Positions 3,844 through 29,121 of a stretch of 64,000 nucleotides of DNA are shown piece after piece. The stretch covers positions 89,501 through 153,500 of the forward strand of contig NZ_VOOS01000003.1 in assembly GCF_007993035.1 (NCBI RefSeq), written 5' to 3'. The position numbers and the translations under genes were made by a program. This DNA is from Vicingus serpentipes (GTDB lineage Bacteria; Bacteroidota; Bacteroidia; Flavobacteriales_E; Vicingaceae). The notes beneath the pieces are model-generated. The model did not search any database. It had not been told where the DNA came from and was given only the letters and a program-made list of their open reading frames with translations. Position 1 is the first letter of the stretch; each line of letters starts with the position of its first letter.

Positions 3844-5279
3844 GTAAGGATGGAAACATAGAGGATTGGTATAAGGGTGAACTTTCAAATTTTGAAGCGA
3901 ATCCTGATGCTGATGGGTGGGAGTCAATTTCCAGCCAATTGGATAATGATGCGATATTGACTGATGAAAATGTTGGAGAATGGTATGTGCAAGAATTGGA
4001 AAAATTTCAGACTGCACCTGATAAAGAAGTTTGGAGTAAGTTGTCTACAAAATTAGATGTAACAAGTGTTTGGGATAAGTTGTTGGTTTCATTAAATCAA
4101 TATGACAGAATGATTTGGTGGAGAAATACGGCTTTTAAATCTGCTGCGCTTTTACTTTTATTTATAGGAGGTTATTATACTTATACAAATATAGGAGGTG
4201 AGGAAAGCAATAATAAATTTATTGTTTCTGAATCAATATTAGGAGAAAATGGTACAACTAAAAATAATACTATCGGATTTGAAAAAGCTAAAAATAATTT
4301 AAACGCAAAACAATCTTCTTCTGTTATTGATGAAAAGGTGTTTAGTAAAGCAAGCTTTTCAGTAGCGCCTAAATTAACAACTATTGTTACTAGAAAAGGA
4401 GAGCCAAAAGCAAAACGTTCAAACAACAATAATGAAATGCTAGTTGCATCTATGGCAACAAAAGTGGAAAAGATACAGTCTTTAAAAGTAGGAGAATTAG
4501 GGGGGGATTATTCTATACTTCCTTTAATTTATAACACTAAAGCTCCTGTTAATTTAGAAACGAAAAGAATAACCTCAAAAGAGTTTTTGGTAAAAAAAGA
4601 TCAAAACAAAATAATATTTAATTCGAAAAGATTCTCTTCTCATTTTGTTTTTGGAATGTATGCTCGTCGACTATATTTTGGAGTTAATGGAGGTGTGAAA
4701 TATCAAACATTGTTTGCTAGTAGTAAGCAAAATGAAGCATTCTCTAATTTTACTAAAAAGCAATTGATGGATTTTGGAGGAAGTTTTGGGGCAACTGTTG
4801 GGTTGATAGTTTCTGATAAATTTAATTTAGAAGCAAATGTAAATGTATTATCAACAAGTGGTAATAAGCATGAATATTCATCATCTAGTAATAGTTTAAT
4901 TCAAGAAGTTAACCTTCAATATTCTACTGTTAGCTTATTGGCTAAAAAAATGAATAATAAGTCTACATTTGATAATAAAAAATACTCTACAAATTATATT
5001 GGAGGCTTATATGCAGGGTTTTTAACAGCTGCAGAAAATAATATTGATGGAAATATAGTTGATATGAAGAGTCAATATTCTAATATAGATATAGGAATTG
5101 TATTAGGAATTGAGCAGGATAGATATATTACAAAAGAATTAGTTGTTACACCTGGAGTTAGATTTTATCAAGGTCTTTTAAATACTTCTAATCAATCAAA
5201 TGAGCTAATGAATTCATCTAGAAATTTTTCGGTTGAATTCAATATTGGGCTAAAGTATATTTTCTTAAAGAAAAATTAA
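3840..5279 (+). CDS. Membrane-anchored putative sigma-factor partner with C-terminal beta-barrel-like domain
   Basis: A 479-residue protein starting with a GTG that overlaps the sigma-factor stop. The cytoplasmic N-terminus carries two copies of one motif: residues 6-35 (NIEDWYKGELSNF...) and 44-73 (NVGEWYVQELEKF...), each NxxxWYxxELxxFxxxPDxxxWxxxSxxLD. A transmembrane segment follows at about 97-116 (SAALLLLFIGGYYTYT). Residues about 270-479 alternate glycine and aromatic residues (YFGVNGGVKYQ, GGLYAGF, VTPGVRFYQG) and end in IGLKYIFLKKN, like the PorT-type outer-membrane barrel domains common downstream of Bacteroidota ECF sigma genes. An anti-sigma role is inferred from position and the repeated cytoplasmic motif; no named anti-sigma domain is recognised. 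Confidence 0.7.
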   Translation: MSKDGNIEDWYKGELSNFEANPDADGWESISSQLDNDAILTDENVGEWYVQELEKFQTAPDKEVWSKLSTKLDVTSVWDKLLVSLNQYDRMIWWRNTAFKSAALLLLFIGGYYTYTNIGGEESNNKFIVSESILGENGTTKNNTIGFEKAKNNLNAKQSSSVIDEKVFSKASFSVAPKLTTIVTRKGEPKAKRSNNNNEMLVASMATKVEKIQSLKVGELGGDYSILPLIYNTKAPVNLETKRITSKEFLVKKDQNKIIFNSKRFSSHFVFGMYARRLYFGVNGGVKYQTLFASSKQNEAFSNFTKKQLMDFGGSFGATVGLIVSDKFNLEANVNVLSTSGNKHEYSSSSNSLIQEVNLQYSTVSLLAKKMNNKSTFDNKKYSTNYIGGLYAGFLTAAENNIDGNIVDMKSQYSNIDIGIVLGIEQDRYITKELVVTPGVRFYQGLLNTSNQSNELMNSSRNFSVEFNIGLKYIFLKKN

Positions 5280-5333
5280 TATCAAACCAACCATTTAGCA
5301 TAGTAAATCGTGTTACATTTGAAATCTGATAAC

Positions 5334-5786
5334 ATGAGTATCTTAAAAAACATATTAACCATTTCAGTAGTTGCAGGAATTTTTGTTTTGCATCCTAGTT
5401 TAAATAAAGGTGACAATCCAATTTCTTATTTACAATATTTAGTTTATGGCAATTCTTTAACGTTAGATGTGAATTCATCAATAAAGAAAGAAGCCATAAA
5501 AATATTGTGGGTTAATCAAGATGCAAAACAAGAGTTAGTTGTTTTTGAAAAAGGGCAGATTTTAAATGAAGTACCTTCAGAAATCGGAAATCAAAAATTA
5601 TTAGTTTACTATTTCGATAGTTATATTGGTGAGATTCAACAAGAAAAAACTAAAAAATTTCAAGCACATCAATATCACATTAAATTATCTTCAAAAAACA
5701 ATACAGTTTTTTTTAATGGTGAAATTGAAGGTCCTGCTAGTTATAAATCACCTTCAGTTACTATTCCTAACATGGCTTCCTTGTAA
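5334..5786 (+). CDS. Hypothetical exported protein
   Basis: An open frame also exists from a GTG at 5310, but the ATG at 5334 gives a sensible N-terminus (MSILKNILTISVVAGIFVLH), a signal peptide or membrane anchor, so it is preferred (150 residues). The rest is hydrophilic with predicted beta-strand character and no motif I recognise. It lies 54 bp after the sigma-partner gene in the same direction and ends at a hairpin terminator, so it is probably the last gene of the sigma-factor operon. Function unknown. Confidence 0.7.
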   Translation: MSILKNILTISVVAGIFVLHPSLNKGDNPISYLQYLVYGNSLTLDVNSSIKKEAIKILWVNQDAKQELVVFEKGQILNEVPSEIGNQKLLVYYFDSYIGEIQQEKTKKFQAHQYHIKLSSKNNTVFFNGEIEGPASYKSPSVTIPNMASL

Positions 5787-25856: not shown

Positions 25857-27101
25857 ATGTCATTTGACTCATTAGGGTTATCAGCTCCTTTATTAAAAGC
25901 TGTAAGCAAAAAAGGTTATACTAAGCCTTCAACAATACAACAAAAAGCAATACCATTAGTTTTAGAAGGAAGAGACGTTTTGGCTTCGGCTCAAACAGGA
26001 ACAGGAAAAACAGCAGGGTTTACCTTGCCTATTTTACAAATTTTATCACAAACTAAACAATTACACCGAAGACCAATAAGAGCATTGGTGCTAACACCAA
26101 CAAGAGAATTGGCTGCTCAGATTTATGAAAATGTAAGAGAATACAGTGAGTTTATCGATTTTCGTTCGGCAGTAATATTTGGTGGGGTAAATCAAAACCC
26201 GCAAATACGAGCTATAAAAGGAGGGTTAGATTTATTGGTAGCCACACCAGGTCGTTTATTAGATTTACACAATCAAGGAGAAATTTCTTTAGCTAATATT
26301 GAGATTTTAGTGTTAGATGAAGCTGATCGTATGTTGGATATGGGATTTTTACATGACATTAAAAAAATAATGGCATTGTTACCCAACAAAAGACAAAACT
26401 TATTGTTTTCAGCTACTTTTTCAAAAGACATAAAAAAACTGGCAAATACTATATTGCATAATCCAGTTTTAGTTGAGGCTGAACCAGAAAATACGACTGC
26501 TGAAAAAGTAAATCAGCGTGGGTATAAAGTGGATAGAGGTAGAAAAACAGAGTTAGTAATAAAACTAATTTCTGAAGGAAACTGGAAGCAAGTGTTAATT
26601 TTTACCAGAACCAAACATGGAGCGAACAAGCTAAGTGAAAAATTGGTGAAAGCAGGTATTTCATCTGCTGCCATTCATGGTAATAAAACGCAAAATGCAA
26701 GAACAAAAGCGTTGGCCGATTTTAAAAGTGGAAAAGCAAGTGTTTTAGTTGCTACCGATATTGCTGCTCGTGGTTTAGATATACCATTATTGCCTCATGT
26801 AATTAACTATGAATTACCAAATATACCAGAAGATTATGTTCATCGTATCGGGCGAACAGGAAGAGCTGGAGCAAGTGGAGAAGCTATTTCGTTAATAGAT
26901 TTTGAAGAGTATGAATATGTTAGAGATATCGAAAAACTATTAGGACATAAGCTGCAAAGTGAAACTGTTCCTGGTTTCGATTTAGAAAATATACCATCGC
27001 CTCCAAAACAAGAAAGAGGACCAAGAAGACCAAGAAATGATAAGCCAAAAGCAAGCAACCAAAAACGAAATTCAAATAATTTTAAGGGGAATAGGAGGTA
27101 G
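25857..27101 (+). CDS. rhlE: DEAD-box RNA helicase (RhlE type)
   Basis: A 414-residue ATP-dependent RNA helicase. Motifs in order: Q motif ([15 protein letters not shown]), [11 protein letters not shown], Ia PTRELAAQI, Ib [52 protein letters not shown]. The tail from about 370 is basic and Pro/Arg/Asn-rich ([18 protein letters not shown]) and probably binds RNA. This matches RhlE-like helicases in ribosome assembly or RNA decay. The stop codon abuts the left end of the 27102-28550 inserted element by one base, so the normal downstream sequence has been displaced or replaced. Confidence 0.93.
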
Positions 27102-27298
27102 TTTCGTTTAACGACCCGGCTATGCGTAGTGCGGGATTTGAAAAGCGGAGTTTTCAAATCTGCACGTAGCCAAGAGTTTATATTTTGTTTTTAATTTATT
27201 CACTTTAAATACCAAAATAAAGTATTGGCGGACTTCATTAATAGCACTGACCTTTCGTTTAGCAGAAAACCCGCATTACGTATAGCCCTTGTTGTGCG
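27102..27298. repeat. Structured left end of an inserted cassette (inverted-repeat array)
   Basis: About 197 bp of unusual, locally GC-richer sequence. Elements seen: outer repeat TTTCGTTTAACGAC (27102-27115), matched in inverted form at 28537-28550 (12 of 14); an 18-bp arm GGCTATGCGTAGTGCGGG (27118-27135) paired with CCCGCATTACGTATAGCC (27270-27287), the only differences being two G-T pairs; an inner perfect 10-bp hairpin GATTTGAAAA / TTTTCAAATC (27135-27160); a second partial CGTAGCC (27165-27171); and GTTGTGCG (27291-27298), inverted at 28493-28500. The whole can fold into one long branched hairpin. No open frame is credible here. Confidence 0.8.
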
Positions 27299-27305
27299 TT
27301 CGTTT

Positions 27306-28382
27306 TTAATATATTCGGTCAAATGCTTTTCCATTAAATTTATAAACGGCAGCTGGAGATTCGCCTGCAAAAAGCAGTTCATTCTTTTTCGTTTTGTAAA
27401 TAGTCCAAATATTATCACTCTTCACACCGTCTTCTTTTGTGTAATTCTTAAACTCATTCGTGTTTGGGTTGTACTTCCATATGCCTGAATAAACTGTACC
27501 GAACCACATATTACCCAAAGAATCTTCTGCTATTGAAAAGGCTCTATGAAGTGTGTTTTCATCATTATCTCCCTCATCTAAATTATGTCTCTTTGTAAAA
27601 TTTATAGTCTCATTTCCATCATATACAAATATGCCGGCTCCATTGTCAGCAATCCATAGTTTTCCTTCACTATCAACAAAAATCCCCCGAATTCCTATTT
27701 GGCGTTCATCATTTTGTCTTCCCATCTCCTCACGACCAATTGTAATAAAAGAGTTGTTTTTTAGTCCAAAAACCTTCTCCATGGTTCCGACCCAAATAGT
27801 ACTATCCTTTCCAATATAGGCTTTAGTAGTTGGATAGTATAGGTATTTATTGTTATCATCTTTTTTTAATGGGAATGGAATAAACTGAGTGTTATTACTA
27901 TTCAAATTATAAATCCCTGGCTCTACATATAAAGAACCGGTTGGGCTTAAACCTCGTTGAAACCAAATACCATTTTGATTCCCATTTGAGACTAAGTTGT
28001 TGTCAAATTTCTCTTCTATAAATCGTTTGCCATTGTATCGGAAAATTTTGAAGCCATCTTCTATCCAAATTGTTCCATTTATGTCTTTATGAAGATTGCC
28101 AACAATATTTAATCCATCATTTTCGGAAAAATAATACAATGCTTTTCCATCAAACTTTGCTACATAGTTTGGACTTGAAAACCAAAGGTTTCCTTTGCTG
28201 TCTTCTAAAATGTCACGAATACCACGAGTTTCTTTTAACCAAAGACTTGTGTCTATTGCAACTTCAAGACTATTTGCATTAGGTTTAGAAATTTGAGATT
28301 TTACTTGTCCATTACAAGCCAATAGAAGCGTAGTAAATGAAATTATTATAGACAAATTCATAAAGGTTAAAAATTTATTCAT
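27306..28382 (-). CDS. Two-component-regulator-type propeller lipoprotein in an inserted cassette
   Basis: A 358-residue lipoprotein. The ATG at 28382 is chosen over a TTG at 28409 because it begins a proper lipoprotein signal (MNKFLTFMNLSIIISFTTLL, then lipobox LLAC with Cys23). The mature part is a beta-propeller of Reg_prop-like repeats: DSKGNLWFSSPN, DSEGKLWIADNGAGIFVYDG, DSLGNMWFGTVYSGIWKYNP. Such propellers normally form the sensor half of hybrid two-component systems; here there is no Y_Y_Y domain, kinase or regulator, so it is a free-standing, probably surface or periplasmic, lipoprotein of unknown ligand. It is opposite in direction to its neighbours and bracketed exactly by inverted repeats, suggesting horizontal acquisition. 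Confidence 0.85.
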   Translation of the reverse strand: MNKFLTFMNLSIIISFTTLLLACNGQVKSQISKPNANSLEVAIDTSLWLKETRGIRDILEDSKGNLWFSSPNYVAKFDGKALYYFSENDGLNIVGNLHKDINGTIWIEDGFKIFRYNGKRFIEEKFDNNLVSNGNQNGIWFQRGLSPTGSLYVEPGIYNLNSNNTQFIPFPLKKDDNNKYLYYPTTKAYIGKDSTIWVGTMEKVFGLKNNSFITIGREEMGRQNDERQIGIRGIFVDSEGKLWIADNGAGIFVYDGNETINFTKRHNLDEGDNDENTLHRAFSIAEDSLGNMWFGTVYSGIWKYNPNTNEFKNYTKEDGVKSDNIWTIYKTKKNELLFAGESPAAVYKFNGKAFDRIY

Positions 28383-28492
28383 TTTATTTTTTTCTAAACT
28401 TATAACCAACTATTTCATTTAGATACTTTCAATTGTAAAATTATGTCAATAAAGTGTAAATTTTCAATTTAGTTTCTTGGTTGGTCTAATGA

Positions 28493-28550
28493 CGCACAAC
28501 GCTGTTCTTGGAAACGTTTAAATGTTTCTTAAAACTGTTGTTAAACGAAG
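28493..28550. repeat. Right end of the inserted cassette
   Basis: CGCACAAC (28493-28500) is the inverted copy of GTTGTGCG at 27291-27298. GTTGTTAAACGAAG (28537-28550) is the inverted copy of the outer left repeat. Between them CGTTTAA and TTAAACG form another inverted pair. It lies upstream of the lipoprotein gene and just upstream of the marR regulatory region. Confidence 0.7.
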
Positions 28551-28612
28551 TTCGAGTATTTTTTTGATAAAGTCAAGTCTTTTTAACTAAGGAGAAAAAA
28601 TATTTTCTACCT

Positions 28613-28665: not shown

Positions 28666-29121
28666 ATGAATAAAAACACCATAGATTACGAAATAAAATC
28701 GGCCTGGCATTCCATTTTTAAAATGTATAATCAGGTTGCGCAAAAGCACGAAACTTCTCAAGCTACGGGTTTTTTATTGTTAAGTATTGCAAAAGAAGGT
28801 ACACCATCTACAAGCATTGCTCCAGCAATGGGTATGGAAGCAACAAGTTTGAGTAGAATATTAAAATCGCTCGAAGAAAAAAACTTGATTTACCGAAAAA
28901 AAGACGATAAAGATGGGCGTATGGTACGTATCTTTTTAACTCCCGAAGGAGTTGAAAAAAGAAAAATAGCAAAAAAAGTAGTTTCTGGATTTAATGATTT
29001 AATCCATCAAGAAATTCCTCAAACAAAATTAAGCGTGTTTTATGATGTTATGAACGACATTAATAAAGTAGTTGAACAATATAAAGAACTAAACGAACTA
29101 AATAATGAACAGAAAAATTAA
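28666..29121 (+). CDS. MarR family transcriptional regulator of the fatty-acid operon
   Basis: A 151-residue winged-helix repressor-type protein. The ATG at 28666 is chosen over an upstream in-frame start at 28636, which lies inside the operator/promoter. The winged helix spans about 30-105 (TSQATGFLLLSIAKEGTPST, MGMEATSLSRILKSLEEKNL, then wing KKDDKDGRMVRIFLTPEG). Terminal helices form the dimer interface. It overlaps the next gene by 17 bp and heads a beta-oxidation operon, so it most likely senses acyl-CoA or fatty acids and represses its own operon through the two palindromes upstream. The ligand is inferred from context. Confidence 0.92.
   Translation: MNKNTIDYEIKSAWHSIFKMYNQVAQKHETSQATGFLLLSIAKEGTPSTSIAPAMGMEATSLSRILKSLEEKNLIYRKKDDKDGRMVRIFLTPEGVEKRKIAKKVVSGFNDLIHQEIPQTKLSVFYDVMNDINKVVEQYKELNELNNEQKN

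Follow-up and report, generated by a model that had tools for sequence, protein, structure and literature searches.

Results

A lipoprotein gene cassette between rhlE and marR

Within the window, by which we mean the entire 64,000-nt stretch of Vicingus serpentipes DNA analysed here, a lone lipoprotein gene lies between an rhlE-type helicase gene and a marR-type regulator gene and runs antiparallel to both, as an earlier note made from the letters alone had observed (Table 1). That note had also described two pairs of inverted repeats around the gene and a foldable array on its 3′ side, all of which we recovered. On the plus strand, the inner pair reads GTTGTGCG at the left and, inversely, CGCACAAC at the right, and these two places are the only matches to GTTGTGCG in the window (0.33 expected). 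The outer pair (27103–27115 and 28537–28549; 13 nt, 92% complementary) starts directly after the rhlE stop (27101). None of 200 shuffles folded as stably as the 3′ array, whose outer stem (GGCTAT-A-CGTA-A-TGCGGG / CCCGCA-C-TACG-C-ATAGCC) has 18 positions, two of them mismatched, and in which a perfect 10-bp hairpin (GATTTGAAAA/TTTTCAAATC) is nested. An Rfam search of the sequence gave no match.

The two repeat pairs had been taken for one frame, a view that we could not maintain. The inner pair belongs to the cassette itself, whereas the outer pair is a resident target site, hereafter called a socket, that the cassette has split. The cassette spans 1388 bp, begins G|TTGTGCG on the minus strand and ends with CGCACAAC and a 184-nt attC-like hairpin site, its final base being G. 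The complete minus-strand order is TTCGTTTAAC-39-nt hairpin-G | TTGTGCG...gene...CGCACAAC-AAG-outer stem...GGGTC-G | TTAAACGAA, in which the socket layout is TTCGTTTAAC-hairpin-G|TTAAACGAA with the cassette inserted at G|. Joined without the cassette, the flanks form AACAGTTTTAAGAAACATTTAAACGTTTCCAAGAACAGC-GTTAAACGAA; deletion of 27112–28499 would leave AACAGTTTTAAGAAACATTTAAACGTTTCCAAGAACAGCGTTAAACGAA, which is nearly identical to empty sockets of the same genome (G000:C2:162156-162217 and C6:164552-164613). The rhlE–marR junction, where the earlier note had proposed to look for an empty site in sister genomes, is rearranged in the three congeners compared, and no orthologous empty site was seen there.

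Table 1 Features of the cassette locus in window coordinates.
Feature	Position	Strand	Remarks
Mobile cassette	27112..28499	-	First bases TTGTGCG, last G; deletion leaves an intact socket
Cargo gene	27306..28382	-	358-aa secreted lipoprotein-like protein; two-component-regulator-propeller repeats (PF07494, E 9e-17)
attC-like site, long type	27110..27293	-	AAC...GTT, 184 nt; fold z -3.97
Outer stem, 5′ arm	27271..27287	-	GGCTAT-A-CGTA-A-TGCGG; A at 27281 and 27276 opposite C; from descriptor and family covariation
Outer stem, 3′ arm	27118..27134	-	CCGCA-C-TACG-C-ATAGCC; C at 27129 and 27124; from descriptor and family covariation
R″-like box CGCACAAC, end of cassette body	27291..27298	-	Exact complement of 28493-28500
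R′-like box GTTGTGCG, cassette start	28493..28500	-	G at 28500 is the socket's
Inner hairpin of resident socket	28501..28539	-	Repeat family, ~12 own-genome copies
Socket R″-like arm TTCGTTTAAC	28540..28549	-	
Socket R′-like arm GTTAAACGAA	27103..27112	-	Parted from its partner by the cassette; (T)TAAACGAA after every occupied socket examined
Conserved socket leader TTGACTTTATC...CGAAC	28550..28576	-	Promoter-like, directed into the cassette; presumed promoter activity
rhlE-type helicase	25857..27101	+	Left neighbour, host gene
marR-type regulator	28666..29121	+	Right neighbour, host gene

A family of attC-like hairpin sites

Matches to the window's 3′ array occur in 35 of 100 relatives and at two further places in its own genome. 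The earlier note would have abandoned its proposal had the genome held no second copy of the repeat; second copies are present, and both halves of the proposal, an attC-like cassette or a repeat-mobilised family of Bacteroidota, hold in that there is a site family, with arrays adjoining a recombinase and with empty sockets.

Site lengths fall into two main classes, 121–127 and 184–192 nt. A typical outer stem consists of 6 bp, an A·C mismatch, 4 bp, another A·C mismatch and ~6 bp, and has no bulged bases, the two mismatches standing in their place. These mismatches of the top strand are G·T pairs on the bottom strand, and by folding energies the bottom strand is the stabler one in 67 of 68 outer stems. 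Of the 14 stem pairs, 12 vary on both sides when 37 short sites are compared, with 129 two-sided changes against a single one-sided change. Pairing in the same sites reaches 98.3% and drops to 19–42% after sliding the partners; this percentage is biased because the sites were preselected by a pairing descriptor, which did not demand the variety of pair types. Descriptor matches numbered 20 in ~77 kb of real sequence and 3 in 155 kb of dinucleotide shuffles.

The R box takes the form GTT-R-N5-MAT with a cassette-specific 6-mer, and only AAC/GTT is retained from the classical consensus: 5 of 68 sites fit RYYYAAC and 9 of 68 fit GTTRRRY. The agreement of GTTTAAC/GTTAAAC in the outer repeats with these patterns, on which the integron idea had partly been built, is therefore a coincidence. 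Since the 6-mers are cassette-specific, the 11-mer core pattern TAACGCACAAC (one mismatch allowed) showed no enrichment over a reversed control (16/8 vs 16/12).

Arrays of cassettes with complementary ends

Within an array, the hexamer that follows a site's GTT is complementary to the hexamer that precedes the AAC of the following site; both hexamers belong to the same cassette. This complementarity was complete (6/6) in 53 of 76 neighbouring pairs of sites defined by our covariance model (CM), compared with a permutation mean of 1.5 and maximum of 8, and involved 39 distinct 6-mers. Several imperfect pairs span ~2 kb or longer and probably contain a missed site. The main ORF follows the array direction in 44 of 51 cassettes (opposite in one, none in six). 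Array lengths are lower bounds, as many of the genomes are fragmented assemblies and repeats break contigs.

Two arrays deserve separate mention. One cargo gene (89% identical) occurs in arrays of Algibacter onchidii (L154:14552-15346) and of another family (L287:4408-5202), where the homology ends at the start and stop codons and not at the cassette ends. On a plasmid of Chryseobacterium sp. SNU WT5 (L304), a platform with three CM sites 3′ of the recombinase has an IS110 transposase and a group II intron within its array.

Empty and filled sockets in the V. serpentipes genome

Searches for the marR-side flank repeat recovered ~12 recognisable socket copies in the genome, three of them empty (L240, L241, L242), seven holding one cassette each and two unclear. 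Besides the window locus and L002, the filled sockets have the end pairs GTAGCC/GGCTAC (L233), GGCAAC/GTTGCC (L234), ACCTAC/GTAGGT (L235), AGGCAT/ATGCCT (L236) and ACCTGT/ACAGGT (L239); the R box is perfect in six of the seven and 8/9 in L002. Cassettes are held in one constant orientation, away from the leader, and the far side restarts with (T)TAAACGAA every time. L237 (G000:C1:381.9 kb) and L238 (C2:384.8 kb) hold a gene with TAAACGAA at the end and no recognisable attC-like site; they could be decayed cassettes or products of another capture route. Their contents are a PAS histidine kinase and a secreted protein.

The leader TTGACTTTATC...(T/G)ANCTTCG is similar to the Bacteroidota promoter, with a clean −7 motif match in some copies only; read as TTGACTTT...TANCTTCG, a possible counterpart of the integron Pc promoter, the leaders are promoter-like, of the Bacteroidota type, in part of the copies. 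Cassettes may be expressed from the socket leader. An identical GCCTCGCAATGCGAGGC terminator lies upstream of the leader in two sockets (L089 and L090; G000:C6:164.5 kb and C3:496.4 kb). Sockets may spread by some route as ~130-bp modules of terminator, promoter and site.

A search with the exact socket pattern found intact sockets in the V. serpentipes genome only, so the sockets of other lineages differ. The complete 2.6-Mb genome G170 has a short array at 738-750 kb of C1 and single sites dispersed over its chromosome. One of these single sites has a CTTCGCTAAC-hairpin ahead of the cassette and GTTAGCGAAAC behind it, an analogous socket of other sequence (the CTTCGCTAAC...GTTAGCGAA case).

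A recombinase family and its attI-like hairpin

The first tyrosine recombinases noticed near sites pointed to a family (P0001-P0007). The absence of an integrase gene, which the earlier note had pointed out, holds for the window; elsewhere in the genome there is a candidate recombinase, at 541.2 kb (G000:C1:541189-542337), and members in G037, G007, G019 and G021 are 56–82% identical to it. The ~380-aa protein combines an Xer/IntI-like core with an extra N-terminal domain of ~90 aa, and these members have the conserved residues R-K-H-R-H-Y. In many genomes, that of V. serpentipes included, an attI-like hairpin follows directly 3′ of the recombinase stop and ends TT-G|TT, after which the first cassette begins. 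The V. serpentipes platform contains a single cassette, a CAAX-protease-like gene bounded by GTT-AGGCGC...GCGCCT-AAC, whose site ends GTA and not GTT.

The insertion of IntI has no counterpart in this family: in the alignment, residues 182–238 of IntI4 (2a3v; 57 residues) stand against ~14, and the spacing from KGxKDR to HxLRH is 65–66 aa. A relative with 107-aa spacing that looked IntI-like (L205) was left out as a control. As for an intI-type recombinase, none of 100 relatives exceeded the TIGR02249 cut-off of 265 bits, and the recombinase itself scored 193–224 bits. Below the cut-off, TIGR02249 proved uninformative as an integrase finder, because Xer proteins match it in 14 of 14 control genomes.

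Across the catalytic and core-binding region, the closest solved sequences are archaeal XerA (4a8e, 5hxy), followed by IntI4, and the protein matches the NF040815 family. A fold search with an AF2 model (pTM 0.55) returned XerA, IntI4 and XerH, a result that is compatible with this assignment and not decisive. Deep branches of the recombinase tree are poorly resolved and do not settle a sister relation to IntI. No phage record contained a closely similar recombinase. Beside the recombinase of every close platform, a cysteine-rich, zinc-ribbon-like protein of ~122 aa is encoded divergently (L117:1236-1604; G007, G019, G021, G037); it matches nothing in Pfam or NCBIfam and is possibly an accessory factor.

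Range of the sites and linkage to the recombinase

The CM, built from 37 sites and applied at E ≤ 0.001 per genome, matched 170 of 247 Bacteroidia genomes and none of 33 non-Bacteroidota genomes. It matched all six Bacteroidota positives, five of which are named isolates, with 5–57 sites each. The N-terminal domain of the recombinase was present in 115 of the 247 genomes. Both features co-occurred in 106 genomes, with 64 having sites only, nine the recombinase only and 68 neither (OR 12.5, p = 1.6e-14). The 64 genomes with sites only may be CALIN-like or reflect a strict N-terminal-domain profile. Among the matches listed, all 28 CM sites that have a recombinase within 20 kb lie downstream of it on the same strand (18 platforms; read by hand from the site and recombinase listings). 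Recombinases with downstream sites occur in Winogradskyella ursingii, Seonamhaeicola aphaedonensis, Aequorivita sinensis, Algibacter onchidii and Algoriphagus ornithinivorans.

tet(X) and catB as cassettes

When plasmids were searched with the recombinase, most of the records returned were from Acinetobacter and carried it in truncated form; in the records examined, this copy directly precedes tet(X3) or tet(X5). The upstream gene is named xerD or tpnF in published work, which found no tet(X) context common to Flavobacteriaceae and Acinetobacter (PMC7494873, PMC7722449). It is the 3′ remnant of the Bacteroidota recombinase described here, 53% identical to it over residues 148–381. Between remnant and tet(X) the sequence runs GTGGATATATACGCC...GGCGTATAGCCACTT-G|TTATGTGCC-ATTTTTGA-ATG, an attI-like form that G021 also has, and tet(X3) starts behind the hairpin with GTT-ATGTGC-CAT. 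On Acinetobacter and uncultured plasmids (L302, L303, L312, L313), the attI-like hairpin of the remnant is intact and tet(X) is the first cassette. The xerD-tet(X3)-res-orf1-ISVsa3 unit of Acinetobacter, now mobilised by ISVsa3/ISCR2 (PMC7722449), has the remnant and the hairpin in common with a platform and differs in its truncated recombinase.

On plasmids of Empedobacter brevis, E. falsenii and Riemerella anatipestifer, tet(X2) forms a complete cassette, with start GTTATGTGCC, end GGCACATAAC (10/10), a 125-nt attC-like site and GTT. Compared with the tet(X3) contexts of Acinetobacter and E. brevis, tet(X) homology stops upstream at exactly GTT, 18 nt before the ATG, and downstream at ...CCAAACGTT. 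The R box of a tet(X3)-type cassette (L310) is less perfect (7/10). A catB cassette of 1028 bp precedes tet(X2) in E. brevis (L306:2977-4004). R. anatipestifer has two copies of it (99.4 and 98.8% identity; L311:1113-2140 and 4327-5363), one further upstream and one right behind tet(X2), and every boundary has GTT. The boundaries of these natural cassettes are exact, and natural mobility can be seen in them: as cassettes with precise ends, tet(X2) and catB pass between plasmids of Empedobacter and Riemerella. The catB chloramphenicol acetyltransferase gene itself is antiparallel to the array direction. Behind tet(X4) of E. coli (L308:3994-5180), GGAATAAAACGGCACATAAT is followed by divergence, so that the R″ box is visible and the site cut off; tet(X4) probably represents another truncated cassette.

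Discussion

The element in the window very probably belongs, as a gene cassette, to a site-specific recombination system of Bacteroidota that resembles integrons. This system, widespread and with a non-IntI recombinase and different hairpin sites, is apparently undescribed; we found no description of it in the open-access full texts searched. A platform consists of the ~380-aa tyrosine recombinase, the attI-like hairpin (TT-G|TT) after its stop and a same-direction cassette array. Each cassette has the form TT-N6...one gene...N6′-AAC-hairpin-G, with N6 and N6′ complementary to each other and differing between cassettes, so that an excised circle would carry a site with a perfect R box of 8–10 bp. 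The platform recombinase presumably performs the reaction, most likely cutting the folded bottom strand at G|TT, with the crossover base placed within GTT. In this putative single-strand mechanism, the two conserved A·C mismatches of the top strand (G·T on the bottom strand) would set the strand choice. In V. serpentipes, cassettes are also captured singly into the ~12 dispersed sockets, each a promoter-like leader with R″-hairpin-R′, and the window shows one such socket between rhlE and marR with a lipoprotein cassette in it.

We weighed four other explanations. The cassettes could be real but be worked by XerCD or some other recombinase of the host, with the linked one no more than a platform marker. 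This would agree with the 64 of 170 site-bearing genomes in which no N-terminal-domain recombinase was detected, and with a core close in sequence to XerA/Xer. XerA itself resolves dif sites and has neither cassettes nor the ~90-aa N-terminal domain. The exclusively downstream sites (28/28 among the matches listed), the hairpin right after the stop and the co-occurrence (p = 1.6e-14) make a host recombinase very improbable as the active enzyme.

Much of the architecture would also be accounted for if this were an ordinary integron cassette or CALIN on which a canonical IntI, present or former, acts. Like integrons and CALINs, the system has single-gene cassettes in tandem and in one direction beside a tyrosine recombinase, an attI-like site by the recombinase gene with the first cassette at G|TT, and AAC...GTT hairpin sites. 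It further shares with them G|TT boundaries with R″/R′ complementarity of the cassette's own in the circle (53/76 pairs; tet(X2) and catB boundaries), dispersed cassette insertion, a predicted bottom-strand preference and resistance genes as cassettes. 'Inverted' integrons of the Treponema type have an integrase gene that reads towards the cassettes, as the recombinase does here; theirs is an IntI, whereas ours fails the IntI tests. Integrons have also been reported from Bacteroidota (PMC8618304), and IntegronFinder 2.0 recorded one complete integron in the phylum, in Salinibacter (PMC9024848). The I2 domain is reported to accommodate extrahelical bases and not to have been identified outside IntIs (PMC4792948). 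This insertion near patch III is absent from the linked recombinase (57 IntI4 residues against 14), which has an extra N-terminal domain. We found no IntI with the insertion linked to arrays in the genomes surveyed, and no TIGR02249 match above the cut-off in the 100 relatives. The sites differ as well: GTT-R-N5-MAT with its cassette-specific 6-mer replaces GTTRRRY (5/68 and 9/68), two 1×1 A·C mismatches replace the extrahelical bases that give strand polarity, and the CM finds nothing in the genomes of other phyla searched (0/33). The attI-like site, moreover, is a hairpin unlike the classical attI and lies just 3′ of a recombinase gene that reads towards the array, and many dispersed sockets have their own leader. 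A canonical IntI is on these grounds very unlikely. Because the IntI insertion is absent, the IntI cut-off and the R-box consensus are not reached and the extrahelical bases are replaced, we do not file the system as a strict integron; judged by its sequences, it is integron-like in its working and not an integron sensu stricto.

The hairpin repeats might be ends of a non-autonomous transposon that carries genes by chance, either a MITE or an IS200/IS605 or REP-type element that a single-strand transposase mobilises in trans. Many dispersed copies, imperfect palindromes and the repetition of the sockets themselves recall such elements. IS200/IS605 or REP/RAYT elements have hairpins at both ends and a Y1 HUH transposase acting in trans; each cassette here has a single hairpin site at one end, the 3′ side. 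Fixed terminal inverted repeats with a target-site duplication, as in MITEs, are replaced by 39 terminal 6-mers and insertion at one point in a pre-existing palindrome. Neither head-to-tail arrays with cassette-specific complementary ends, nor the strict placement 3′ of a tyrosine recombinase, nor insertion at a single point would be expected of either kind, which leaves this explanation only a slight probability. Intergenic hairpins are common, but that a normal gene is simply flanked by terminators, attenuators or other regulatory or chance hairpins is a negligible prospect given the family covariation, the empty and filled sockets and the exact boundaries between plasmids.

Beyond the cassette system itself, we incline slightly towards a wider interpretation. 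According to this, Bacteroidota would have a second, phylum-wide kind of integron with non-IntI folded-hairpin recombination, possibly of IntI-independent origin, with A·C/G·T strand choice and distributed promoter-bearing sockets for single cassettes, and it would have been the original route by which tet(X) was mobilised out of the phylum. Integrons are reported to be near-absent in Bacteroidota, yet about two-thirds of the sampled Bacteroidia carry the sites of this integron-like system, which existing integron searches were not designed to detect. The system is thereby a candidate route of gene exchange for a major phylum of gut, soil and sea, and a natural comparison for hairpin recombination that would work without the IntI insertion. 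It also offers a testable answer to the mobility of tet(X), a last-line tigecycline resistance gene: that tet(X) is a cassette, and the adjoining 'xerD' the relic of the cassette recombinase.
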